Positions 2,436-51,833 of a DNA stretch of 64,000 nt are shown here, piece after piece; position 1 is the first letter of the stretch; the number at the start of each line of letters is the position of its first letter. Location: positions 1 through 64,000 of the forward strand of contig JAOTVB010000016.1 of NCBI GenBank assembly GCA_029863605.1, given 5' to 3'. Made by a program: the position numbers and the translations under genes. The notes under the pieces were generated by a model, which ran no database searches, was not told the DNA's origin, and worked only from the letters and a program-made list of their open reading frames with translations. The stretch is from Myxococcales bacterium (GTDB lineage: Bacteria > Myxococcota_A > Polyangia > Polyangiales > Houyiibacteriaceae).

Positions 2436-2905
2436 CCGTCGATCACGGGACTCGTGTCACGGGTCGCGGTTTCCTCGATCCGCGCCTCTCTGAGCCTCGT
2501 GAAGATCTGGTAGGCACCCACTCCAACCAACATGGCTGCACCGAAAATCAGAGCTTCGTGTGACCGCGCGCCGACCGACGTGAATGCAGGGCCCGGACAG
2601 TATCCACCAAGCCCCCAGCCGACGCCAAACAATGCCGAGCCCGAAACCAGACGCCAATCGATGTCTTTTCGAGTCGGCAAGGAGAACGACGAGGCCCAAA
2701 TCGGGCGATGCCACTGCTTGACGACCGCGCGATAGACCGGGGCGTACACCAACAGGGCGCCCGCCATCACGAAGCCGAGGCTCGGGTCCCAACTCCCTCC
2801 GAAATCGAAGAACCCGACGATCTTGGCGGGCTGAGTCATGCCGGAAACGGCCAGCCCGATGCCAAACACCAAGCCTCCGAGAAACGCACCGACTTTGATT
2901 TTCAC
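2432..2905 (-). CDS. YeeE/YedE-family sulfur transport protein, second half-protein
   Basis: 157 residues if started at the GTG at 2905. That start has GGAGG just upstream and overlaps the stop of the preceding gene by four bases (GTGA), the usual sign of coupled translation. The protein has several membrane segments and the conserved GGYCPGPA with a single Cys, as in the C-terminal half of YeeE/YedE (PF04143) proteins. Related proteins import thiosulfate or related sulfur species through membrane cysteines. With the next gene it forms a split two-gene version of the family (PmpA/PmpB-like arrangement). A longer ORF upstream of 2905 is hydrophilic and Arg-rich and looks like shadow sequence. 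Confidence 0.82.
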   Translation of the reverse strand: MKIKVGAFLGGLVFGIGLAVSGMTQPAKIVGFFDFGGSWDPSLGFVMAGALLVYAPVYRAVVKQWHRPIWASSFSLPTRKDIDWRLVSGSALFGVGWGLGGYCPGPAFTSVGARSHEALIFGAAMLVGVGAYQIFTRLREARIEETATRDTSPVIDG

Positions 2906-3333
2906 ACCGCACCTCCAAGGATCTCGTTCACGATGAACACGGTGATGGCGGCGGTCGCCATGAACGACACCGTGGCGACGGTGGATCGCTTCGAAAACCG
3001 TCCGATCCCGCAAACGCCGTGCCCGCTCGTGCAACCGCTTCCAAGTTGGGTGCCGATGCCGACGGCCAGGCCCGCTGCGATCAACGCCAGGCTGGTGCGA
3101 TCGATCTCGACTCGGTATGCTCCGGGATAGAACCAGCTCCCGAGCACGCCGGCCATGAAGAGGCCGGCCAGGAACATGATACGCCACGTGACGTCACCGG
3201 GTTGCCTTCGAAAGATGCCTCCGGCGATTCCGCTGATGCCGGCGATGCGTCCGTGGAACATTAAGAGACCCGCAGCGGCCGTGCCGATCAGCGTGCCCCC
3301 AAGCGTCGATGCAATGGGTGTGAATGAGTCCAT
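2902..3333 (-). CDS. YeeE/YedE-family sulfur transport protein, first half-protein
   Basis: 143 residues from the ATG at 3333, preceded by GTGGAG. The frame stays open to 3453, but that extra stretch has no membrane character. The sequence has NGRIAG-like HGRIAGISGIAGG and the paired-cysteine loop GSGCTSGHGVCG, hallmarks of the N-terminal half of YeeE/YedE. The cysteines are thought to relay thiosulfate or sulfane sulfur through the membrane. First gene of the operon with the second half-protein and SulP, divergent from the persulfide dioxygenase. A near-perfect sigma-54 -24 element sits only about 15 bases upstream of this start codon, which creates a leader-length puzzle. Confidence 0.82.
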   Translation of the reverse strand: MDSFTPIASTLGGTLIGTAAAGLLMFHGRIAGISGIAGGIFRRQPGDVTWRIMFLAGLFMAGVLGSWFYPGAYRVEIDRTSLALIAAGLAVGIGTQLGSGCTSGHGVCGIGRFSKRSTVATVSFMATAAITVFIVNEILGGAV

Positions 3334-3347
3334 GACTCCACTACAAA

Positions 3348-3364
3348 GCACCAGGCGTGCCAAA
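3348..3364 (-). promoter_or_regulatory. Candidate sigma-54 promoter for the YeeE/YedE-SulP operon
   Basis: On the minus strand this reads TTTGGCACGCCTGGTGC. The -24 element TTGGCACG is perfect and GG and GC are separated by exactly 10 bases; the -12 element is GTGC instead of TTGC. The predicted transcript would begin about three bases before the ATG at 3333, excluding the apparent ribosome-binding site. Either the mRNA is nearly leaderless or this site is not the promoter used for this ATG. Confidence 0.5.
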
Positions 3365-3446
3365 GGTACAGCAGGTCCTCCGCACCTGATTCCCCGGGGG
3401 TTTTCTCCTCCGGCCGTTTCAAGGCTGGTTGCACCCCCGCTGTGTC

Positions 3447-3474
3447 GTTTCACTCAATGTTTCAATATGTTTCA
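3447..3474. promoter_or_regulatory. Triple GTTTCA repeat, candidate activator-binding site
   Basis: GTTTCA occurs at 3447, 3459 and 3469, spaced 12 and 10 bases, so all three lie on about the same face of the helix. They sit about 65-95 bases upstream of the predicted start of the persulfide dioxygenase transcript. This is within the range used by enhancer-binding proteins, and one is encoded nearby at 4648-5964. Assignment to that protein is inference. Confidence 0.4.
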
Positions 3475-3512
3475 GAATGGGTCCAGATGCTCGTTATTTC
3501 ATATGGTTAGCG

Positions 3513-3530
3513 TTGGTACGCACGTTGCAC
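3513..3530 (+). promoter_or_regulatory. Sigma-54 promoter for the persulfide dioxygenase gene
   Basis: TTGGTACGCACGTTGCAC matches the TTGGCACG-N4-TTGC consensus, with GG at 3515-3516 and GC at 3527-3528 separated by 10 bases. Predicted start of transcription is about 3540, leaving a 48-base leader with AGGAGG before the ATG at 3588. A sigma-54 activator gene of the FisR type lies just downstream, which fits. Confidence 0.72.
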
Positions 3531-3549
3531 TGTGTGTGAGCTAGATGGC

Positions 3550-3561
3550 CTACGGCCGTAG
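3550..3561. other. Perfect 12-bp palindrome in the persulfide dioxygenase leader
   Basis: CTACGGCCGTAG is its own reverse complement and lies 10-20 bases after the predicted transcription start. It could be a protein-binding site or a small RNA hairpin. No function can be assigned. Confidence 0.35.
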
Positions 3562-3587
3562 TCTGTCCATCGCCTAGGAGGTACTCG

Positions 3588-4637
3588 ATGCTACTTCGCC
3601 AACTCTTCGACCACGAAACCTGGACCTATACCTATCTCGTTGCCGACGAGGAGTCGGGCAAGGCCGTCCTGATCGACCCGGTCATCGATCAGATCGAACG
3701 CGACATCCAACTCCTCGATGAGCTCGGGCTCGAGCTCGTCTACACCATGGACACACACGCACACGCCGATCACATCACCGCGTCGGGGCTCTTGCGGGAG
3801 CGATTCGGCAGCAAGGCGGTGGTAGGCGCAAACGCGGGCGCGGTCGGCGCAGACGTGCTCGTTGAAGACGGTAACACACTGGAGGCGGGCGGTCTGAAGT
3901 TCGAGGTCCGCGCAACCCCTGGGCACACCGAAGGCTGCGTCACGTACATCACCTCGGATCACAAAAACGCCTTCACCGGCGACGCGATCTTCATCCGTGG
4001 TACGGGTCGCACGGACTTTCAGCAGGGTGATCCACAGAGGCTCTACCGCTCGATCCACGACAAGATTTTCACCCTCCCCGATGACACGATCATCTGGCCC
4101 GGCCACGACTATCGCGGACGGACGTTCACGACCGTCGGCGAAGAGAAGAAGTTCAACCCGAGGGTCGGCGACGGCAGGAGTGAGGCCGAGTTCGTGGAGA
4201 TCATGAACAACCTCCACCTACCCACCCCGAGGAAACTTCACGAAGCGGTTCCCGCCAACCTCCATTGTGGCTTGGTTCCTCCGGAATCGATGTCCGGTGA
4301 TCCGCTTCCCGAGCGCGGCTGGGCGGCCATCGAGCGAACGCCAGAGGGGATTCCGGAAGTATCGACGGCATGGGTTGCGGAGAACCGAGGGGGAATTCGG
4401 ATGGTCGACGTCCGAGAGCTCGATGAAGCCGAGACCGACGGGGCCATCGAGGGCGCCGAGATCATCCCGATGGGGACCGTGGACGAGGCCTCCAAGGCTT
4501 GGGATCGCGAGCAGCCGGTGATCACCATCTGCCGATCCGGCCGGAGATCCGGTCGCGTTGCGCTCGAGCTCGAGAAGCTCGGGTTCAAGCGAATCGCCTC
4601 GATGCGCGGTGGAATGGTCGCCTGGAACAATCAGTAG
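3588..4637 (+). CDS. Persulfide dioxygenase fused to a rhodanese domain
   Basis: 349 residues; AGGAGG precedes the ATG. Residues 1-230 are a metallo-beta-lactamase fold of the ETHE1 type: H57/H59/D61/H62 (THAHADH), H113 (TPGHTEG), D132 (FTGDAIF) and H173 (PGHDYRG). In ETHE1 the iron is held by two histidines and an aspartate. The GTGRTDFQQGD segment is typical of persulfide dioxygenases. Residues about 255-349 are a rhodanese with the active cysteine in the loop CRSGRRS (C315). Known fusions of this kind oxidise glutathione persulfide to sulfite and move sulfane sulfur to or from thiosulfate. Cytoplasmic. Its neighbours are sulfur transporters, a sigma-54 activator and a TauE-type exporter that could remove the sulfite formed. 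Confidence 0.9.
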   Translation: MLLRQLFDHETWTYTYLVADEESGKAVLIDPVIDQIERDIQLLDELGLELVYTMDTHAHADHITASGLLRERFGSKAVVGANAGAVGADVLVEDGNTLEAGGLKFEVRATPGHTEGCVTYITSDHKNAFTGDAIFIRGTGRTDFQQGDPQRLYRSIHDKIFTLPDDTIIWPGHDYRGRTFTTVGEEKKFNPRVGDGRSEAEFVEIMNNLHLPTPRKLHEAVPANLHCGLVPPESMSGDPLPERGWAAIERTPEGIPEVSTAWVAENRGGIRMVDVRELDEAETDGAIEGAEIIPMGTVDEASKAWDREQPVITICRSGRRSGRVALELEKLGFKRIASMRGGMVAWNNQ

Positions 4638-4647
4638 GGCGCACGCG

Positions 4648-5964
4648 TCAGTCGAGTAGGCCGTGCTGCTTCATTCTTCGCCAAAGCGTCGCCCGGCTCA
4701 TCCCGAGACTCTGGGCGGCCCGACCTCGGTGGCCGGCAGCGCGTTCCAAGGCAACCGCGATACGGTCGGCCTCTAGCGAGCCTGCCCTGGCGGCCCTCGA
4801 ACGCGGGCGATTCGCAAGACGGGGCCCCGGCTCTTCGCCGAGGAGCTCCGGGGGAAGATCGGACTCGGTGAGAATCGGTCCCTCTCCCATGGCGAAGGCG
4901 TACTCGATCACGTTTTGGAGCTCGCGTACGTTGCCCGGCCAGTCATAACGCTCGAGGACCAGCCTTCCGCCCGGCGACACACCCCGAATCTCACGCTCGC
5001 CTCGACTACTCTGCATCTCGATGAACTTGTCGACGAGCAACATGATGTCGGAGCGACGTTCGCGTAGGGGGAGTAAGAACAGCGGCACGACCCGGATGCG
5101 GTACATCAGGTCCGCCCGAAACTCGCCCGCGTCGACCGCCTCGCGCAACGATCGGTGGGTCGCCGACACGATTCGCACATCGACGGGCACCGGAGCCCTA
5201 CCCCCGACGGGAATCACCGACTTTTCTTGCAACACCCGTAGGAGCTTTGCCTGCAAATCGAGCGAAAGCTCGCCGATCTCGTCGAGAAAGATTGTCCCTC
5301 CGTCAGCGACGCGAAACTGCCCGGGCGAGTCTTTGACCGCCCCGGTGAACGCGCCCCGCACGTGGCCGAAGAGCTCGCTTTCGAGGAGCTGAGGCGGTAG
5401 CGCCGCGCAGTTGATCGCGACGAACGGCCCGTGACTCCGGGTTGACTCGAGGTGAATCGCCCGAGCCACCAGCTCCTTTCCGGTACCGGTCTCGCCGCGA
5501 ACGAGAACCGTCACGTCGCGGCGCGCGACCCGCCCCACATCGCGCAGAAGCGTCTTCATGGAAGGGTCGCGCGTCCAGATTCCATGAAACTCGACCGCGT
5601 CGCCGTGTTGATCGCCGGCCCAAGAGTCCGCGCTCAGAGAAAGAAGCCAACCGATGCGGTCCTCGCCATCGAGCAGAGGCACCGCCCGCACTTGGATGTT
5701 GACCATTTCGCCATCTCGGCCGGGCCGTGGAACGTCCGCCGACACCGGTCGCCCCTCTGCCATCGCCTCCGCGATCGGTCGCTCATCGCCGGTACCGCAA
5801 AGGATCTTTGGAGCGGCGACTCCGATAGGCACGTCGGAGCCGAGAAGCCCAGCCACATCGCCAGCCGCTGCAATGATCCGCAAGTCGCGATCGAGCACCA
5901 GGGCGGGACCGATTGCCTGTTCGAGCGCAAGCTCGAGGAGCGTTGCCGCATCCGCTTTGGCCAC
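4648..5964 (-). CDS. FisR-like sigma-54 enhancer-binding protein, probable regulator of sulfide oxidation
   Basis: 438 residues from a GTG. Residues 1-120 form a PAS-like sensor with one cysteine (C56, in KILCGTGDE). Residues about 130-360 are the AAA+ domain: Walker A GETGTGKE (157-164), sigma-54 contact loop GAFTGA (204-209) and Walker B IFLDEIGEL (from 225). A Fis-type helix-turn-helix lies near the C-terminus (AAQSLGMSRATLWRRM). FisR proteins beside persulfide dioxygenase genes sense persulfides with cysteines in their sensor domain and activate sigma-54 promoters. The sensor here shows a single Cys, so sensing may differ. It converges on the dioxygenase gene, leaving 10 bases between the stops. 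Confidence 0.85.
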   Translation of the reverse strand: MAKADAATLLELALEQAIGPALVLDRDLRIIAAAGDVAGLLGSDVPIGVAAPKILCGTGDERPIAEAMAEGRPVSADVPRPGRDGEMVNIQVRAVPLLDGEDRIGWLLSLSADSWAGDQHGDAVEFHGIWTRDPSMKTLLRDVGRVARRDVTVLVRGETGTGKELVARAIHLESTRSHGPFVAINCAALPPQLLESELFGHVRGAFTGAVKDSPGQFRVADGGTIFLDEIGELSLDLQAKLLRVLQEKSVIPVGGRAPVPVDVRIVSATHRSLREAVDAGEFRADLMYRIRVVPLFLLPLRERRSDIMLLVDKFIEMQSSRGEREIRGVSPGGRLVLERYDWPGNVRELQNVIEYAFAMGEGPILTESDLPPELLGEEPGPRLANRPRSRAARAGSLEADRIAVALERAAGHRGRAAQSLGMSRATLWRRMKQHGLLD

Positions 5965-42872: not shown

Positions 42873-42922
42873 TAGGGGTTGTGTCTGGCCCCAGCTAATG
42901 TCCTGGGCCGGTGAGTGGTAGT

Positions 42923-44911
42923 GTGATTCTCCCAAATTGGTTTCCAACTCGCTCCGACAGCCCCACAGGGCTCCGCACCCGAGCATCGAGCGATGATGCC
43001 TCGGAGGAAACGCAGGTCTCGCAGGCTGCGCCCGATGCGGAGTGGCTGTGCACGAATGCCGGTGGCTCCTTCGCGATGGGAACGATCGATCGCCGCCCGC
43101 GACGCAAATACCATAGCCTTCTCACCGTGCGCGAGCCCGGCATTGGTGAGCCACTCAACCTCGTCGCGGAGCTCGAGGAATGGTTCGAAGTGGGCGGCGA
43201 AACCTTCGCGCTTCACAGCTACGACTGGGGAAACGCGGTCGAGCCGAATGGAGTTCAGTACCTGGTGGAGTTCGATCCGCAACCGAGGTGGACTTACCAT
43301 TTTGCCGGTCTTGACGTGATCCGCGAGCTTTGGCTGGAAGATGGCGCCGACGCGGTCTGGCTTCGCTATTCGGTAGAAGGCATCACCGAGCCGGTCCAAC
43401 TCAGGTTGCGCCCTTTGATTCGATGCCGCCCGATTCACAAGCTCACTTTCGCGAATCCGTTCTTGAATGGAGAAGTCGACGTCGATGACGCGGGCTTCCT
43501 GCAGGCGACGATGCGACCCTACAAAAACGTTCCTCCGCTCGTGACCAGCCTTCACGGCGCCCGGGGCACGTTCCGGAGAGACGGCCACTGGTACGAGGGC
43601 GTCCACTACGAATGGGAAAACGCCCGCGGCTACGAAGACACCGAGGACTTCTTCACGCCTGGAGAGTTTTGCATCACGATCGACCGCGACACTTCGTTGA
43701 GTGTCCGGCTCGGGACGACACCCACGCGGAGCCCCGACCCACAAGTGCTGACCTCTCTTCCGAGCGGCGGACGTTCGTTCCTAGAGGAGCTCGACGATGC
43801 TGCCGACGCATACCTGGTCAAGCTCCAAGGAGATGGGACCGGTGTGATCGCCGGGTATCCGTGGTTTGGCGAGTGGTCTCGTGATGCTCTGATCTCGCTT
43901 CCAGGCTTGTGTCTCGCCAGAGATAGGGCCAGTGACGCATTGGCCATCCTCGAGTCGTTGGCCGAACGCCTTGAAAACGGGTTGGTTCCGAATATCCCGA
44001 AGAGCGGTGATGTCCCGGCCAATGCAAACGCGATCGACGCCTCGCTCTTGTTCGTCTGGGCGACGGCCCTGACGTCAAGACGGACCCGGAGCCGCCGATT
44101 GGGAGCTCTTCAGGAGGCATGCCTCGATTTGATCGAGCGCATCATAGGGGAAGCGGACGCCCGCGTGCACGTGGATCCTCAGGGCTTCCTCTTCGTAGAC
44201 CAAGGACCTTGGGCGCTCACTTGGATGGACGCCATGGTCGACGGACGCCCGGTGACGCCACGGTGGGGCTATCCCGTCGACCTCAACGCGCTGTGGCTGT
44301 CCGGTCTGATCACCACGGGCCGGTGGGCCAAGAAACTGCGCCCCAAGCTCGCCAAGACACTCGAAGAAACCGCGAGGAAGCTTGCAGATCACTTCGAAGA
44401 AAAATTCTGGCTTCAAGATCAAGGGTTCTTGACCGACACGCATGATGGCGAAAACCCGGATTGCCGACTACGACCCAATCAACTTTGGGCACTCGTATTA
44501 CCTGGAGTTCCGCTCGAGAAATCACACAAGCGCCAAGCCCTGCACGCCGTGCGCAGCAAGTTGCTCACGCCCGTAGGGCTTCGCACGCTCTCGCCCGACG
44601 ATCCCGACTATCGACCGGTCTATCGAGGGGGACAAACCGATCGGGACCTCGCGTACCACCAGGGGACCGTGTGGCCCTGGCTGCTCGGCCTCTATGCCGA
44701 TGCGGTTCGCGCGATCGACGGGCCAACGGCAATGAACGCGGAGCTCTTGCCGATCCTTGCGAGCCTCTGCGCCCACTTCCGCACCGAAGGCTGCATCGGC
44801 CAGATAGGTGAGGTGTTCGACGCTGACCCACCGCACCTCCCGGGAGGGGCCCCAGCGCAGGCCTGGAGCGTCGCCGAGGTGTTTCGCGTCGCCAAGATGG
44901 CAGTCCCATGA
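42923..44911 (+). CDS. Glycogen debranching enzyme (amylo-alpha-1,6-glucosidase, GDE type)
   Basis: 662 residues from the GTG at 42923, which has GGTGAG seven bases upstream; an in-frame GTG at 42911 would add four residues. The N-terminal beta-domain (AGGSFAMGTIDRRPRRKYHSLL, VELRLRPLI-like) and the C-terminal alpha/alpha barrel match GDE enzymes (GH133): GYPWFGEWSRDALISLPGL, NIPKSGDVPANANAIDASLLF, GYPVDLNALW and YRGGQTDRDLAYHQGTVWPW. It removes alpha-1,6 branch residues from glycogen. First gene of a four-gene glycogen operon. Confidence 0.9.
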   Translation: MILPNWFPTRSDSPTGLRTRASSDDASEETQVSQAAPDAEWLCTNAGGSFAMGTIDRRPRRKYHSLLTVREPGIGEPLNLVAELEEWFEVGGETFALHSYDWGNAVEPNGVQYLVEFDPQPRWTYHFAGLDVIRELWLEDGADAVWLRYSVEGITEPVQLRLRPLIRCRPIHKLTFANPFLNGEVDVDDAGFLQATMRPYKNVPPLVTSLHGARGTFRRDGHWYEGVHYEWENARGYEDTEDFFTPGEFCITIDRDTSLSVRLGTTPTRSPDPQVLTSLPSGGRSFLEELDDAADAYLVKLQGDGTGVIAGYPWFGEWSRDALISLPGLCLARDRASDALAILESLAERLENGLVPNIPKSGDVPANANAIDASLLFVWATALTSRRTRSRRLGALQEACLDLIERIIGEADARVHVDPQGFLFVDQGPWALTWMDAMVDGRPVTPRWGYPVDLNALWLSGLITTGRWAKKLRPKLAKTLEETARKLADHFEEKFWLQDQGFLTDTHDGENPDCRLRPNQLWALVLPGVPLEKSHKRQALHAVRSKLLTPVGLRTLSPDDPDYRPVYRGGQTDRDLAYHQGTVWPWLLGLYADAVRAIDGPTAMNAELLPILASLCAHFRTEGCIGQIGEVFDADPPHLPGGAPAQAWSVAEVFRVAKMAVP

Positions 44912-46371
44912 AGGTACTGATGTTGGGATGGGAGTACCCACCGCACATCAGCGGTGGACTCGGAACCGCTTGCGAAGGGCTGACGAGGGCGCTCGCGAGT
45001 CGAGGCATCGAGATCGACTTCTTGGTACCGCGGCTCTACGGTGAAGAGGACGCGCCACACATGCACCTCCTCGGGGCTACGGGACCGGAAGCTACGCAAC
45101 GAGTCCCCCTGCAGCTTCCCAGGCGAAGCTACGAAAGTGCGTTGACAAAAGCGATCGCGACCGAGCCGTCTCTTGCGACGGACCCGATTCTGACGGCGGC
45201 TGCCGAGGCCAGCAGAGGAGTCAGCCCGGTCGGTATACGCACTATCCGCGTGCCGGCAATGTTGAAGCCGTATCTCGACCCATCTGCCTATCTCGAGCTA
45301 CTCACGGCCGGGGGGTTCGACGAGGCTACCGTAGCGCAGCTAGTGCACGAGCTACCAGGCCCCCCTCGCGAGGTCCGTCGGCAACTCGATCAACCACACG
45401 TGGGCGACGACCTTGGGGAATGGAGCGCTGAGCCCACGGCTGAGGTTCACTATGGGCACGACCTGTTTGCTGAGGTGGCACGCTATGCCGCCGCCGCAAA
45501 GCGGAGGGTAAGCGGGCGGAAGTACGACATCATTCATGCCCATGACTGGATGACGTTTCCGGCAGGCATCGAGATCGCCGCCCGCGTCAAAGCTCCATTG
45601 ATAACTCACGTCCACAGCCTCGAGTACGACCGTGCGGCTGAGGGCGCAGACCGCGGAATCGTCGCGGTCGAACACGAGGGGCTCGAGCGCGCAAAGCGGG
45701 TGATCGCGGTCAGCTACTACACACGGGGCCTCATCAACCGAGTCCATGGCACCTCGCTCGACAAGATTTCAGTAGTGCACAACGGGGTGTATACGCGCGC
45801 AACGGTCCAAGCGTATGCACAACAGCGTAAATCCACGGGGCCCGTGGTCCTTTTTCTCGGCCGAGTCACTTTCCAAAAAGGGCCGGAGTACTTCGTCGAG
45901 GCCGCCGCCCGGGTGCTCAAGCATGTCCCTGACGCGAAGTTCATCATGGCCGGTTCCGGCGACATGTTGCCTCGCATGAAGGCGATGGTGGAGCGCCTCG
46001 GCATCGGGGATGCTTTCCGGTTCCCCGGATTCGTCCGAGGCGCCGATCTCGAGCGAACCTTCTCCACGGCCGACGTGTACGTCATGCCATCGGTATCCGA
46101 ACCCTTCGGGATCGCTCCACTCGAGGCGATGAGCTACGACCGGCCCGTCATCGTCTCCAAGCAGTCGGGGGTCTCCGAGGTCCTTCGAAACGCTTTGAAG
46201 GTCGATTTCTGGGACGTCGACAAGATGGCTAGCCAAATCGTGGCCTTGCTCGAGCTGCCCGAGCTTCGGCGTGTCATCGTCGAGCTCGCCCGAGAGGAAA
46301 TTCGTCACATCCATTGGGATGCTGCTGCAGAAAAACTCATTCCGATCTATCAATCGGTGAAGGCTGTCTGA
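44908..46371 (+). CDS. GT4-type glycosyltransferase, probable glucan synthase
   Basis: 487 residues; the start overlaps the debranching gene in an ATGA. N-terminal MKVLMLGWEYPPHISGGLGT carries the donor-side glycine loop seen in starch/glycogen synthase-like enzymes. HAHDWMTFPAGIEIA, LGRVTFQKGPEYFVEAA and the E-x7-E motif in SEPFGIAPLEAMSYDRPVI complete a GT-B fold of the GT4/GT5 type. It should transfer glucose from a nucleotide sugar. With the fusion protein two genes later the operon encodes two predicted glucan synthases, so their roles may differ. Confidence 0.87.
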   Translation: MKVLMLGWEYPPHISGGLGTACEGLTRALASRGIEIDFLVPRLYGEEDAPHMHLLGATGPEATQRVPLQLPRRSYESALTKAIATEPSLATDPILTAAAEASRGVSPVGIRTIRVPAMLKPYLDPSAYLELLTAGGFDEATVAQLVHELPGPPREVRRQLDQPHVGDDLGEWSAEPTAEVHYGHDLFAEVARYAAAAKRRVSGRKYDIIHAHDWMTFPAGIEIAARVKAPLITHVHSLEYDRAAEGADRGIVAVEHEGLERAKRVIAVSYYTRGLINRVHGTSLDKISVVHNGVYTRATVQAYAQQRKSTGPVVLFLGRVTFQKGPEYFVEAAARVLKHVPDAKFIMAGSGDMLPRMKAMVERLGIGDAFRFPGFVRGADLERTFSTADVYVMPSVSEPFGIAPLEAMSYDRPVIVSKQSGVSEVLRNALKVDFWDVDKMASQIVALLELPELRRVIVELAREEIRHIHWDAAAEKLIPIYQSVKAV

Positions 46372-46380
46372 GGAGAAACC

Positions 46381-47583
46381 ATGCCGTCTGTCTGTTTTTA
46401 TTTCGAAGTGCACCAGCCTTACCGTTTGAAGCCATATGGAGCGCTTCAAGTCGGCCGCGACCACGAGTACTTCGATTCCAAGCTCAATGCGCAAGTGCTG
46501 CGCAAGGTGGCAGACAAATGTTACTTGCCGGCGAACGAATCGATGCTTCGTTTGATCGAACGCACCGACCGTCGATTTCGGATTTCGTATGCCATCACCG
46601 GCGTCGCGATCGAACAGATGAAGCAATACGCGCCCGAGGTCATGGACAGCTTCGTGAGGCTTGCCAAAACGGGTGCCGTCGAGTTCATCGCCGAGACGTA
46701 CTATCACAGCCTCGCCGCGCTCTACGACAAGGATGAATACAAGGCGCAAATCGATCTCGAGGTCGACCTTCTGCGGTCCGAGTTTGGACAGACTCCGCAC
46801 GTGTTCCGCAACACCGAGCTCATCTACAACGACGAGATCGGTCAGTTCATTTCGGATCTCGGGTTCGACGCGATTCTGATCGAAGGCGCCGACGACATCC
46901 TCGACTGGCGAAGCCCGAATTTCGTCTATCGCGTTCCCGGAAGAGACACCCGTCTGCTGACGAAAAACTACCGCCTCTCCGACGACATCGCATTCAGGTT
47001 CTCGAATCAAGCATGGGCCGAGTACCCGCTTACGGCAGACAAGTTTGCCAAATGGGTTCATCAACACAGCGGTGCCGGTGACGTGATCAACCTCTTCATG
47101 GACTACGAGACCTTTGGCGAGCACCAATGGAAGGAAACCGGCATCTTCGACTTCCTCGAGCACCTTCCCGACTTACTATTCACCCATCCGCACTGGGACA
47201 TTCTCACGCCGGGCCAAGTGATCGAACGCTACCCTGCACTTGGGGACCTTTCGTTTCACAGGACCGTCTCGTGGGCGGACGAAGCCCGCGACATCAGCGC
47301 GTGGCGTGGCAATGCCATGCAGCAGCGCGCCCTTGCCGAAATCTACGCCCTCGGCACGGACGTGAAGCGCCGAAACAATTCGCACTTGTTGGCGCTTTGG
47401 CGGCGCTTACAGACGTCAGACCATTTCTACTACATGGCCACGAAGTCCGCGGCCGACGCCGAGGTGCACGACTACTTCAGTCCATATGAGGGGCCCTACG
47501 ACGCGTTCATTCACTACATGAACGTGCTGAAGGATTTGAATCTCTCGGTGCTCGGCCCCTTGGAGGAGCGGATACCCGCATGA
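46381..47583 (+). CDS. GH57 alpha-amylase-family glycoside hydrolase
   Basis: 400 residues. It starts VCFYFEVHQPYRLK (GH57 motif I, with HQP). The catalytic nucleophile is probably E146 in FRNTELIYND and the acid/base D241 in FMDYETFGEHQW. GH57 enzymes include amylases, 4-alpha-glucanotransferases and branching enzymes; at 400 residues this resembles the short amylase-type. No separate GlgB is present in the window, so a role as the branching enzyme is possible. It overlaps the next gene by four bases. Confidence 0.87.
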   Translation: MPSVCFYFEVHQPYRLKPYGALQVGRDHEYFDSKLNAQVLRKVADKCYLPANESMLRLIERTDRRFRISYAITGVAIEQMKQYAPEVMDSFVRLAKTGAVEFIAETYYHSLAALYDKDEYKAQIDLEVDLLRSEFGQTPHVFRNTELIYNDEIGQFISDLGFDAILIEGADDILDWRSPNFVYRVPGRDTRLLTKNYRLSDDIAFRFSNQAWAEYPLTADKFAKWVHQHSGAGDVINLFMDYETFGEHQWKETGIFDFLEHLPDLLFTHPHWDILTPGQVIERYPALGDLSFHRTVSWADEARDISAWRGNAMQQRALAEIYALGTDVKRRNNSHLLALWRRLQTSDHFYYMATKSAADAEVHDYFSPYEGPYDAFIHYMNVLKDLNLSVLGPLEERIPA

Positions 47584-50500
47584 GCAAGCCCGCCTTCTTC
47601 GAGATCTCGTGGGAGGTCTGCAACATGGTGGGCGGCATTCACACCGTCTTGGCCAGCAGGGTTCGCGAGGTTCAGGAGAGACACGGGGAAGACGGATACA
47701 TCGCGTTCGGTCCAGACGTTCCGAGAGCCGAAGGGGTTGCACCCGAGTTCCGGTTGGACGTCTGGGACCGCGAGCTGCTCGACTCCCTCAAAGACCACGA
47801 GGTCGGTGTCGTGATGGGGCGTTGGCTGGTGCCGGGCGAGCCTCGCTGCCTCCTCATCAACCAGTCTCGTCTCTACCAGCGCAAAGACGAGATCCTCGGC
47901 TTCTACTGGGAGGAGTTTGGGCTCGACTCGCTCTTTGGCGCCTGGGACTACTACGATCCGGTGCTGTTCGCGCACGGTGCGGGGATGGTGATCGAGCACA
48001 TTCGAGATCGATTTCTTCTTCCCGCTCGTCAGGCAGCGATCGTCCAGGCCCACGAGTGGATGTCGGCGGCTGCCATCCTTCACTTGAAGACGGCAGCACC
48101 CGAGATCGGCACCGTGTTCACCACGCACGCCACCATGCTCGGACGCTCCCTCGCAGGGCGGCGGGCCGACCCGAACTTCTACCAGTCTTTGCCGTCCGTG
48201 GACGTCGAAGCGGCAGCCAAGGAGCTCCAGGTTTCGTCGAAGCACTCGATGGAGACGGTTGCCGCACACCAGGCAGACGTCTTCACGACGGTGAGCGAGA
48301 TCACTGCCCTCGAGTGCGACCACCTTCTCAAACGCAAACCGGACGTGATTCTGCCAAACGGTTTCGGCGCTCGTCCGGTTCCTTTTGAACAACGCGCCCG
48401 AGCGCGGGACGAGCTTTTCAAGCTCGCGGAGCTGACCACCGGGGACGCCTACGATCGAGACAGTACGCTGATCTTGGCGCTGGCCGGACGCTACGAATAC
48501 ATCAACAAGGGCGTAGACGTCTATTTGAATGCCGCAGCGAACCTACGGAGCGAGCTCGAGTCGCGAGATGGGAAGCGCGTCATCGCGTACGCGATGCTGC
48601 CTGCCGGACATGCCGAGCCAAAGCGGCAACTCTGGGACCGGGCCCATGGCGGTTCTGCGGGGCCGCCACTTCGATGCACACACGATCTCGTCGATGAGGC
48701 CAACGATCCGATCACCAACCGGCTGAACGCGCTCGGCTTCGACAACCAACCGGGCGCCCGCGTGCACGTGGTTCACGTTCCGATCTACCTCGACGGGACC
48801 GACCCGCTGATTCGCCAGAAGTATTGGGACCTTCTGCCCGGTGCGGACCTCGGGGTGTTTCCCTCGTTTTACGAGCCTTGGGGGTACACCCCGCTCGAGG
48901 CCGTAGCCTTCGGAGTGCCAGCCATCACTACGGATCGGGCGGGGTTTGGTCGGTGGGTCGTCCGCCAGGGAGACCGCAACCGGACTGGGGTTCGTGTGCT
49001 CAAACGAGAGGGCGTCGCCTTCGAAGAGGTGAGCGACACCCTGGCCGCGGCGTTGGTCGAGTTCATCGATCTCTCTCCAGAGGAACGGGAGTCACTCCGC
49101 CGTGCATCCCTCGAGACGGCCACGCTGACGGCGTGGTCCAACTTCATGGACCACTATGAAGACGCGCATGGGCGAGCATTGGCAGCAGGGGCAGCTAGGC
49201 GAAAAGAGCTCCCGATGGAGCGCCTCAGCGTGCCGTCGGTGCCGGTCGCCACCGACACCTCGGGCGTTTTTGGCCTCGTCGAACGACTGCCCCGCGCCGA
49301 GGGAGAGGAGGTAACCCCGTACACTCGGACTTTCAACGTCGCCAACGCCCTCCCGGCCGAGCTCCAACCCCTAGAAGACATCGCGGCGAACCTATGGTGG
49401 CGCTGGCACCCGGAGGCGGCCGCGCTCTTCAAGCGCCTCGAACCCAGCCTCTGGTTCGAGCTCGAGGAGAACCCGCACGCGCTGCTCGACCAGGTAAAGC
49501 CCGATAGGCTCACGCACCTCGCCATGGACGCTGAGTACGTGCGCAGCCTCAACACGATTCATCAGCGCCTGTTGAGCTCGACAGAGATGCTGGAGCCTCG
49601 CATCGCCTACTTCTGCATGGAGTTTGGGATCGCAAGCTTTCTCAAACTCTATTCCGGCGGCCTCGGGATCCTCGCCGGCGACCATCTCAAGGCAGCCAGC
49701 GATTTGAATCTGCCGCTGTGTGCCGTCGGGCTTGCTTACCACGAGGGCTACTTCCACCAATTCATCGATCGTGACGGCCAACAGGAGGCTTGGGGAGACA
49801 CTAACGACTTTCAAAGCCCACCTTTCGAACAAGTCATGGCGGGCGCCTACGCGCCCCTCAAAGTGACCGTCCCCATGCCGACAGGCCCCGTACACGCGCA
49901 AGCGTGGCAGCTCAAGGTCGGGCGGATCCCCCTCTTCTTGCTCGATACGGACATCGCGGACAACAAGCCCGAGGACCGCGCGATCACGAATCGACTCTAC
50001 GGCGGTGACGCGGAACATCGGCTGCGGCAGGAGATGATCCTCGGTCTCGGAGGTTACCAGCTCCTCACCGAGCTCGATATCGATCCGGACGTGTTTCACA
50101 TGAACGAGGGACACAGCGCTTTTCTGCTCATCGCGCGTGCCGCGCACCTGATTCAGCGGCACGGTCTGCGGTCACAGGAAGCGTTCGAGTACATTCGCAA
50201 TACGACCGTGTTCACGACCCATACACCCGTGCCGGCCGGGCACGACCACTTCCCCGAGGAGATGGTGCGGCCTTTTTTGTCGCGTTTCGAGCACGTCCTG
50301 CGCCTAGACTGGCCCCGCCTCATGGCGATGGGCCACACCCCTAACGGAAAGCCCAACGAGTTCGGCACCACTGCGTTGGCGGTCAGGAACTCCGGGCGCA
50401 TCAACGGGGTTAGTGCGAAGCATGGCGAGGTGGCTCGCGAGATGTTCCTTCAGTTCTACCCCGACATGGATAGCGCCGATGACGTCCCGTCCACCAGCAT

Positions 50501-51833
50501 CACCAACGGCGTCCACGTCCCGAGCTGGCTTGCTCCTCGATGGCAGCGATTGGCCGAGCGGGAGATGGGGCCAGACTGGCGCGATGCGATCGAAGACCCC
50601 GGACGGTGGGAGTGGCTGCGTCACCATGACCCCGCCGAGATATGGAGCGTGCATCAGGAGCTTCGCCAGGACTTCATCGGCTGGCTCAAGGACCACCTCA
50701 CCAAGACCTGGACTCGTCGTCGCGAAAACCTTTCGGTGCTGCAGGACATTCTCGCCCAACTCGACGAGGATCGCCTCTTCATCGGCTTCGCGCGCAGGTT
50801 TGCACCCTACAAACGTGCAGACCTCCTGCTCAGTGAGCCCGAACGCCTGGCAAAGCTCGTCGGTACCAACCCCGGGGCCACGTTGATCTACGCCGGCAAG
50901 GCACATCCCGCAGACGGACACGGCAGGGCGCTCCTGCAGAGGGTCTACCAAGCCACCAAACATCCCGACTTGGTCGGAAGAGTCATCTTCGTCGAGAACT
51001 ATTCGATCGACGAAGCCCGCCGAATGGTCGCCGGGTGCGACGTGTGGCTCAACACGCCAACCCGCCCGCTCGAAGCAAGCGGTACTTCGGGCATGAAGGC
51101 CGCGATGAACGGCTGCTTGAACCTCAGCGTGGATGATGGCTGGTGGATCGAGGGGTACGAGGGTGACAATGGCTGGGTCATCGACTTGCCAGCAATGACC
51201 ATCCACGACCCGAGCGCATACGATCGCGCCGTCACGATGGCCCTCCTCGAGTCGGAGATTCTTCCGACCTACAAGCGGCGCAACGATGCCGGCATACCGG
51301 TCGCATGGGTCGACCGAATGAAGGCCAGCATGGCAAGCATCATTCCTCGCTTTTCATCTCGCCGAATGGTCACCGATTATGCCGATATGTTCTACGAACC
51401 GGCCATGAAGGACGCGGTGGCGCTCCGCGAATCGAACTACCGGCCGCTCTTTGCGTTGGCCGATCTCGCCGAGGGGCTGCGCGCGCGTTGGGGCGAGATC
51501 GCAATGGAAAGCGTGCGGTTCGGAGGCCTCGGCGCAGACGAGCTCATCGTCGGCACCACGGTTTCAGCCGAGCTCTCCCTCCACCATCCGGGCCTCGACG
51601 CGCGGGAGCTCGACGTAGAAGCGGTGGTTGCTTTCGGAGCACGGACGCACGACAGGCCATCGCGGATCGTGGTGCCGTTCGAGGCTGACGGGAAAGAAGA
51701 CCGAAGCACCTGGCGTGGAGCCTTCACGGTCGAAGCGAGCGGAGGCCACGAGCTGAGGTTCCGAGTCCGGCCCAAGCAACGCACGGAAATGCGCCCCGGA
51801 GCACTCGGCATGCACATCCAAAAATGGCTGTAG
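47580..51833 (+). CDS. Fusion of GT3 glycogen synthase and GT35 alpha-glucan phosphorylase
   Basis: 1417 residues in one frame. Residues 1-560 form a eukaryote-type (GT3) glycogen synthase: FEISWEVCNMVGGIHTV, FTTHATMLGRSLAGR, NGF acceptor-side loop, and FPSFYEPWGYTPLEAVAFG. After a linker of about 30 residues, residues 590-1310 are a phosphorylase of the Thermotoga/GlgP type: AYFCMEFGI, YSGGLGILAGDHLKAASDL, TTHTPVPAGHD and the pyridoxal-phosphate lysine K1173 in SGTSGMKAAMNG. A C-terminal beta-domain follows. One chain would thus build and degrade glycogen. The frame is continuous through the linker, so it is not an artefact of a missed stop. Last gene of the operon; repeats follow. Confidence 0.88.
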   Translation: MSKPAFFEISWEVCNMVGGIHTVLASRVREVQERHGEDGYIAFGPDVPRAEGVAPEFRLDVWDRELLDSLKDHEVGVVMGRWLVPGEPRCLLINQSRLYQRKDEILGFYWEEFGLDSLFGAWDYYDPVLFAHGAGMVIEHIRDRFLLPARQAAIVQAHEWMSAAAILHLKTAAPEIGTVFTTHATMLGRSLAGRRADPNFYQSLPSVDVEAAAKELQVSSKHSMETVAAHQADVFTTVSEITALECDHLLKRKPDVILPNGFGARPVPFEQRARARDELFKLAELTTGDAYDRDSTLILALAGRYEYINKGVDVYLNAAANLRSELESRDGKRVIAYAMLPAGHAEPKRQLWDRAHGGSAGPPLRCTHDLVDEANDPITNRLNALGFDNQPGARVHVVHVPIYLDGTDPLIRQKYWDLLPGADLGVFPSFYEPWGYTPLEAVAFGVPAITTDRAGFGRWVVRQGDRNRTGVRVLKREGVAFEEVSDTLAAALVEFIDLSPEERESLRRASLETATLTAWSNFMDHYEDAHGRALAAGAARRKELPMERLSVPSVPVATDTSGVFGLVERLPRAEGEEVTPYTRTFNVANALPAELQPLEDIAANLWWRWHPEAAALFKRLEPSLWFELEENPHALLDQVKPDRLTHLAMDAEYVRSLNTIHQRLLSSTEMLEPRIAYFCMEFGIASFLKLYSGGLGILAGDHLKAASDLNLPLCAVGLAYHEGYFHQFIDRDGQQEAWGDTNDFQSPPFEQVMAGAYAPLKVTVPMPTGPVHAQAWQLKVGRIPLFLLDTDIADNKPEDRAITNRLYGGDAEHRLRQEMILGLGGYQLLTELDIDPDVFHMNEGHSAFLLIARAAHLIQRHGLRSQEAFEYIRNTTVFTTHTPVPAGHDHFPEEMVRPFLSRFEHVLRLDWPRLMAMGHTPNGKPNEFGTTALAVRNSGRINGVSAKHGEVAREMFLQFYPDMDSADDVPSTSITNGVHVPSWLAPRWQRLAEREMGPDWRDAIEDPGRWEWLRHHDPAEIWSVHQELRQDFIGWLKDHLTKTWTRRRENLSVLQDILAQLDEDRLFIGFARRFAPYKRADLLLSEPERLAKLVGTNPGATLIYAGKAHPADGHGRALLQRVYQATKHPDLVGRVIFVENYSIDEARRMVAGCDVWLNTPTRPLEASGTSGMKAAMNGCLNLSVDDGWWIEGYEGDNGWVIDLPAMTIHDPSAYDRAVTMALLESEILPTYKRRNDAGIPVAWVDRMKASMASIIPRFSSRRMVTDYADMFYEPAMKDAVALRESNYRPLFALADLAEGLRARWGEIAMESVRFGGLGADELIVGTTVSAELSLHHPGLDARELDVEAVVAFGARTHDRPSRIVVPFEADGKEDRSTWRGAFTVEASGGHELRFRVRPKQRTEMRPGALGMHIQKWL

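Follow-up and report, generated by a model that had tools for sequence, protein, structure and literature searches.

In textbook glycogen metabolism, the synthase and the phosphorylase are separate proteins that are reciprocally switched, avoiding a futile cycle. The alpha-glucan phosphorylases of the Thermotoga/Thermus/Thermococcus type are stand-alone enzymes. Two enzymes of alpha-glucan metabolism do occur on one chain in the TreS-maltokinase fusion, as described in the accessible portion of a 2024 review on prokaryotic alpha-glucan enzymes (PMC11046441), which covers bacterial GT3 and several fusions and in that portion leaves GT3-GT35 unmentioned. A literature search, with subscription journals and the CAZy tables lying outside it, retrieved no published description of a GT3-GT35 fusion, and the architecture is likely to be listed in a database already.

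Herein, we analyzed a stretch of 64,000 nucleotides (the window; contig JAOTVB010000016.1, positions 1 to 64,000, GenBank assembly GCA_029863605.1) from a Myxococcales bacterium, in which a single frame starting with ATG and running without an internal stop codon (47580-51833, + strand) encodes a protein of 1417 aa that joins a GT3 glycogen synthase to a GT35 phosphorylase. Under an independent-base model with the G+C content of the window, the chance of an open run of 1417 aa was about 2e-19. The fusion gene closes a run of four + strand genes whose ends overlap or nearly touch, and the features of this operon and of the fusion protein are as follows.

42911..44911, + strand: GH133-type glycogen debranching enzyme (GDE_N and GDE_C), the first gene of the operon (Pfam/NCBIfam)
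44908..46371, + strand: GT4 glycosyltransferase, its start overlapping the stop of the GH133-type gene (Pfam/NCBIfam)
46381..47583, + strand: GH57 glycoside hydrolase, its stop overlapping the start of the fusion gene (ATGA) (Pfam)
47580..51833, + strand: GT3-GT35 fusion protein, 1417 aa (frame and Pfam/NCBIfam profiles)
47580..49187, + strand: GT3 glycogen-synthase core, residues about 1-536 (profile, aligned residues and model)
49188..49349, + strand: linker, residues about 537-590
49350..49640, + strand: DUF3417, the N-terminal part of the phosphorylase, residues 591-687 (Pfam)
49602..51401, + strand: phosphorylase core TIGR02094, residues 675-1274, with the PLP lysine K1173 at codon 51096-51098
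51402..51830, + strand: C-terminal extension with a beta-strand domain, the strands lying within residues about 1308-1398

Downstream of the operon, the segment 51909-56335 of the window encodes two CBS-domain proteins, a Host_attach/baeRF protein and a protein with a C-terminal AAA_33 domain; an ORF inside this segment resembles universal stress proteins by eye, and a stress-like cluster adjoins the glycogen operon.

The GT3 half scored 309.9 bits against Pfam Glycogen_syn (PF05693; E 5e-92, cut-off 27), with the best stretch at residues 8-343, and this above-cut-off profile together with a GT3 fold places it in the GT3 family. The other half, residues about 590-1417 overall, was an alpha-glucan phosphorylase of the DUF3417/TIGR02094 type, as it matched DUF3417 (PF11897) at 591-687 with 90.9 bits, Pfam Phosphorylase (PF00343) with the best stretch at 838-1191, and NCBIfam TIGR02094 at 675-1274 with 713.7 bits versus a cut-off of 191.7; the latter score and the DUF3417 N-terminus assign it to the TIGR02094 subfamily of GT35. 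TIGR02094 was the sole NCBIfam model passed by the fusion protein, and since its name covers the phosphorylase half only, annotation can conceal a synthase.

Structure models were built for each half separately. The GT3 model (mean pLDDT 92.1) found GT3 synthases as all of its best Foldseek matches, with an E value of 2e-48 to human GYS1 and a TM score of up to 0.88 to yeast Gsy2. The phosphorylase model (mean pLDDT 89.8) matched the Segatella copri phosphorylase 9l6i with a TM score of 0.94 and an E value of 3.5e-177, and the C-terminal beta-strand extension also fell within this structural alignment.

In the GT3 half, R189, R304 and K310 aligned with R199, R320 and K326 of yeast Gsy2, and E432 and E440 constituted the E-x7-E motif; all five residues were invariant in the 88 fused rows of the GT3 alignment. 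Likewise, K1173, R1073, K1078, H881, N976 and E1165 were invariant in the 86 fused rows of the GT35 alignment, some genomes being present twice in these rows so that the independent genomes are slightly fewer than 88 and 86. R1072, which takes the position of K568 of rabbit phosphorylase, was R or K in the 86 rows, and the residues aligned with H377, N484, R569, K574, E672, T676 and K680 of the rabbit enzyme were invariant in fused rows. The PLP lysine that the original prediction had assigned to K1173 was confirmed, sitting in the invariant EASGTSGMK. With the roles of the aligned catalytic residues of both halves taken by us from family knowledge, these alignments indicate that the active-site residues are intact in both halves. 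In the window, the lysine of the KVGG motif is replaced by M16 (47625-47627). This substitution is not decisive evidence for an altered donor site, given that methionine occupies the position in 22 of the 88 fused rows, essentially one clade comprising the window and Bdellovibrionota, and that long GT3 proteins mostly have Q.

The joined frame might have been an assembly artefact or a pseudo-fusion with one dead half. Full-length orthologues with ~79-94% identity were present in eight other genomes of the same genus, and further genomes of the genus had partial orthologues at the ends of contigs. Beyond the genus, the fusion and its upstream genes recurred together in a second genus of the family, in a different family of the class and in one more genome of the phylum. 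The codon-position G+C was similar in the GT3, linker and GT35 segments. The dN/dS values against four same-genus orthologues ranged from about 0.04 to 0.10 for the two enzyme halves and from 0.07 to 0.16 for the linker and the C-terminus, these being rough values with several pairs near synonymous saturation. The similar codon-position G+C and the dN/dS of ~0.04-0.16 in all segments including the linker thus showed no trace of a frameshift where the halves meet, and both halves are under purifying selection. The two pitfalls that the original prediction had named were hence excluded as far as the sequence allows: a frameshift or sequencing error at the linker by the same-genus genomes, dN/dS and codon-position G+C, and an inactive domain, in all likelihood, by the conserved catalytic residues and purifying selection. 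With several independent same-genus assemblies and an occurrence in four phyla in addition, the artefact reading is refuted at the sequence level, and we regard its probability as practically negligible. The predicted union of GT3 and GT35 in one 1417-codon frame thus stands on the profiles, the genomes of relatives and selection. In one relative (L028; G016:C33:5000-22000), the GT3 part is partly off-frame with respect to its first piece and the phosphorylase, as from two flanking indels, which is probably an assembly error in the draft genome G016.

Genome contigs were also scanned with the GT3 half, and the best 80 loci were taken, which are ranked by likeness to the query and are thus not a random sample. 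GT3 and GT35 were encoded in one frame in 77 of these 80; two of the other three end at a contig edge before GT35, and the third (L038) has GT3 and GT35 in overlapping frames. The named records among these best loci belonged to Myxococcota, Bdellovibrionota, Planctomycetota and Bacteroidota. GH133 and GH57 genes usually lay just upstream of the fusion, with GT4 in most of the 80 loci; they were located downstream in L066. In an evenly drawn sample of Planctomycetota, 24 of the 26 genomes with this GT3 type had it fused, as judged by open-frame length, and a corresponding sample of Bacteroidota yielded five genomes with this GT3 type, four of which have adjacent separate GT3 and GT35 genes. The fusion is real, and its range spans at least four bacterial phyla. 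In the genus and class, some genomes (L011, L012, L013 and L014) hold the fusion plus a separate long-type GT3 synthase, and no such separate synthase was found in the window's genome.

Separate adjacent GT3 and GT35 genes were seen in named records of Bacteroides finegoldii, Parabacteroides distasonis, Phocaeicola massiliensis and Prevotella sp. oral taxon 299, all of which are catalogued as plasmids in the source collection. Quick-type trees were computed separately for each half, the outgroups being long GT3 and unfused phosphorylases. The deep branching order is unsure in them, and the two trees concurred on the main groups, namely a Bacteroidota clade, a Planctomycetota-rich clade and a clade of the window and Bdellovibrionota. 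In both trees, the Bacteroides-type gene pairs formed one group nested inside the fused Bacteroidota. The AU test rejected the alternative topology, in which the fused rows form a clade excluding these pairs, with p values of 0.0093 (GT3) and 1e-66 (GT35). Since the pairs are nested in the fused clade, the separate genes of Bacteroides, Phocaeicola, Parabacteroides and Prevotella most likely arose by secondary fission. One ancient fusion passed on as a unit, followed by one split, is the simplest reading, and under it the neighbouring GT3 and GT35 genes of gut Bacteroides and Prevotella are probably what a split of the fusion left behind. The fission also suggests that the covalent linkage of the halves is not essential.

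The first half had been predicted to be a complete eukaryote-type synthase, which held for the catalytic core and failed for an insert of ~50 residues and for the regulatory tails at both termini. Between residues 341 and 367, the window has a segment of 26 residues, the fused proteins have a median of 27, and 12 of the 12 long-type GT3 compared have 76; columns 342-410 of the Glycogen_syn profile, corresponding to the insert, are missing. In Gsy2, this insert presumably bears helices used in tetramer formation. In the alignment, the fusion showed neither of the N- and C-terminal phosphorylated tails of eukaryotic GT3, and two of the six arginines of the human regulatory (glucose-6-phosphate/phosphate) cluster aligned with arginine in the window, this cluster being far better preserved in long-type GT3 than in fused GT3. 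By its arginine cluster, insert and tails, the GT3 half thus falls outside the eukaryotic-type regulated GT3. With the insert, the tails and most cluster arginines missing, the usual parts list is gone, and eukaryotic-style reciprocal control of the fusion is unlikely. The proposal of tight reciprocal control, exerted through an effector or phosphorylation, was accordingly not borne out for the GT3 half.

A broader form of reciprocal control is conceivable, in which an effector (AMP, glucose 6-phosphate or ADP-glucose) or a covalent modification would flip the halves oppositely through inter-half contacts. Such control would be useful for opposite reactions on one chain and is compatible with the halves having stayed joined over four phyla, and shared new effector sites could take the place of the missing or eroded eukaryotic elements. 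However, the linker between fixed alignment points, 57 residues long in the window, ranges from 16 to 59 residues (median 41) in the fused proteins and also varies in sequence, which argues against a fixed inter-half interface, and the Bacteroides group has the halves as separate genes. We therefore consider this mode of control unlikely. The same variable linker and the tolerance of fission by the Bacteroides group would fit a mere stoichiometry or expression device, in which the two halves work on their own, or are cleaved from each other, and gain no benefit from proximity; the fused state has nevertheless long been kept over four phyla, though the operon alone would ensure co-expression, and this explanation seems to us improbable as well. 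Coupled turnover on the same granule, the other option of the original prediction, would fit the fusion better than reciprocal control.

The sugar donor was approached through the window's genome, a draft of 54 contigs on which all results on missing genes rest. Neither GlgC (best 44.6 bits versus 424.9) nor GalU was found above the cut-off in this genome, and it contains a UDPGP-family pyrophosphorylase above the cut-off (135.8 bits) and a sucrose synthase gene; this combination makes UDP-glucose the likelier donor, and UDP-glucose is thus most likely the GT3 donor, as judged from the genes missing in the draft genome. The genome also encodes a GT5-like protein (289.5 bits, below the cut-off of 328.45) and a further classical phosphorylase (C48). 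A GH13 branching enzyme was not recognised in it (TIGR01515 best 62.9 bits, cut-off 463.95), and the C-terminal domain of GH57 branching enzymes (PF09210) was found nowhere in the genome, though the operon starts with a debranching enzyme gene. A further multi-enzyme fusion in this genome, also of sugar metabolism (L116; G000:C17:95000-112000), unites PfkB, sucrose-phosphate-synthase-like GT4 and sucrose-6-phosphatase domains in one protein (6-2552); the sucrose synthase gene (2549-4948) follows it directly, with overlapping ends.

We infer both catalytic activities of the fusion, the role of proximity and the mode of control as follows. The protein would probably act as a bifunctional turnover enzyme on one glucan, with the direction set by substrate supply. 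The GT3 half would elongate an alpha-1,4-glucan at its non-reducing ends with glucose from a nucleotide sugar, most likely UDP-glucose, and the GT35 half would take the same residues off with phosphate to release glucose 1-phosphate. The joining would hold both activities at 1:1 on one glucan molecule, and the net direction would follow the substrates (UDP-glucose versus phosphate and glucose 1-phosphate) rather than eukaryotic-style phosphorylation or glucose 6-phosphate, while the neighbouring GH133, GT4 and GH57 genes may provide debranching and chain remodelling.

The phosphorylase reaction is reversible, and high cellular phosphate normally pushes it toward phosphorolysis. The phosphorylase half could thus be mainly synthetic, converting glucose 1-phosphate into glucan and making or mending primers for GT3 in a synthesis machine without glycogenin. 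The reversibility would permit this, and the primer requirement of eukaryotic GT3 enzymes, as stated in the review (PMC11046441), would give it a purpose; the phosphate level in cells and the debranching enzyme of the operon, which points to breakdown, make it quite unlikely. We see a faint chance, too, that the two sites of one molecule form a glucan-tethered relay, with the glucan as carrier, converting UDP-glucose and phosphate into UDP and glucose 1-phosphate; if so, together with the sucrose synthase of the genome, the sum would be sucrose and phosphate to fructose and glucose 1-phosphate. A 1:1 covalent fusion that has persisted over four phyla while lacking the eukaryotic GT3 switches allows one to test directly how such cells avoid or use the futile cycle.

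Among the known systems, the pairs of Bacteroides finegoldii, Parabacteroides distasonis, Phocaeicola massiliensis and Prevotella sp. resemble the fusion in both proteins and in their order (~37% identity), but are two genes of about 553 and 854 aa, which the GH133, GT4 and GH57 genes do not adjoin in the two annotated regions. The phosphorylase of Segatella copri (PDB 9l6i, 20yr), a member of the Prevotellaceae, the family in which split genes were seen, aligns with the phosphorylase half over DUF3417, the core and most of the C-terminal beta domain, whereas it is a stand-alone protein of 852 aa without a GT3 half. Yeast Gsy2 and human GYS1 have the fold and the catalytic motifs in common with the GT3 half; in contrast to them, the fusion lacks the ~50-residue insert and the phosphorylated tails, retains two of the six cluster arginines and has a phosphorylase attached. 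The Thermotoga/Thermus/Thermococcus-type phosphorylases (TIGR02094, NF041129) share DUF3417 and the core with the fusion. Finally, TreS-maltokinase joins consecutive steps of a pathway, whereas the GT3-GT35 fusion joins opposing reactions.
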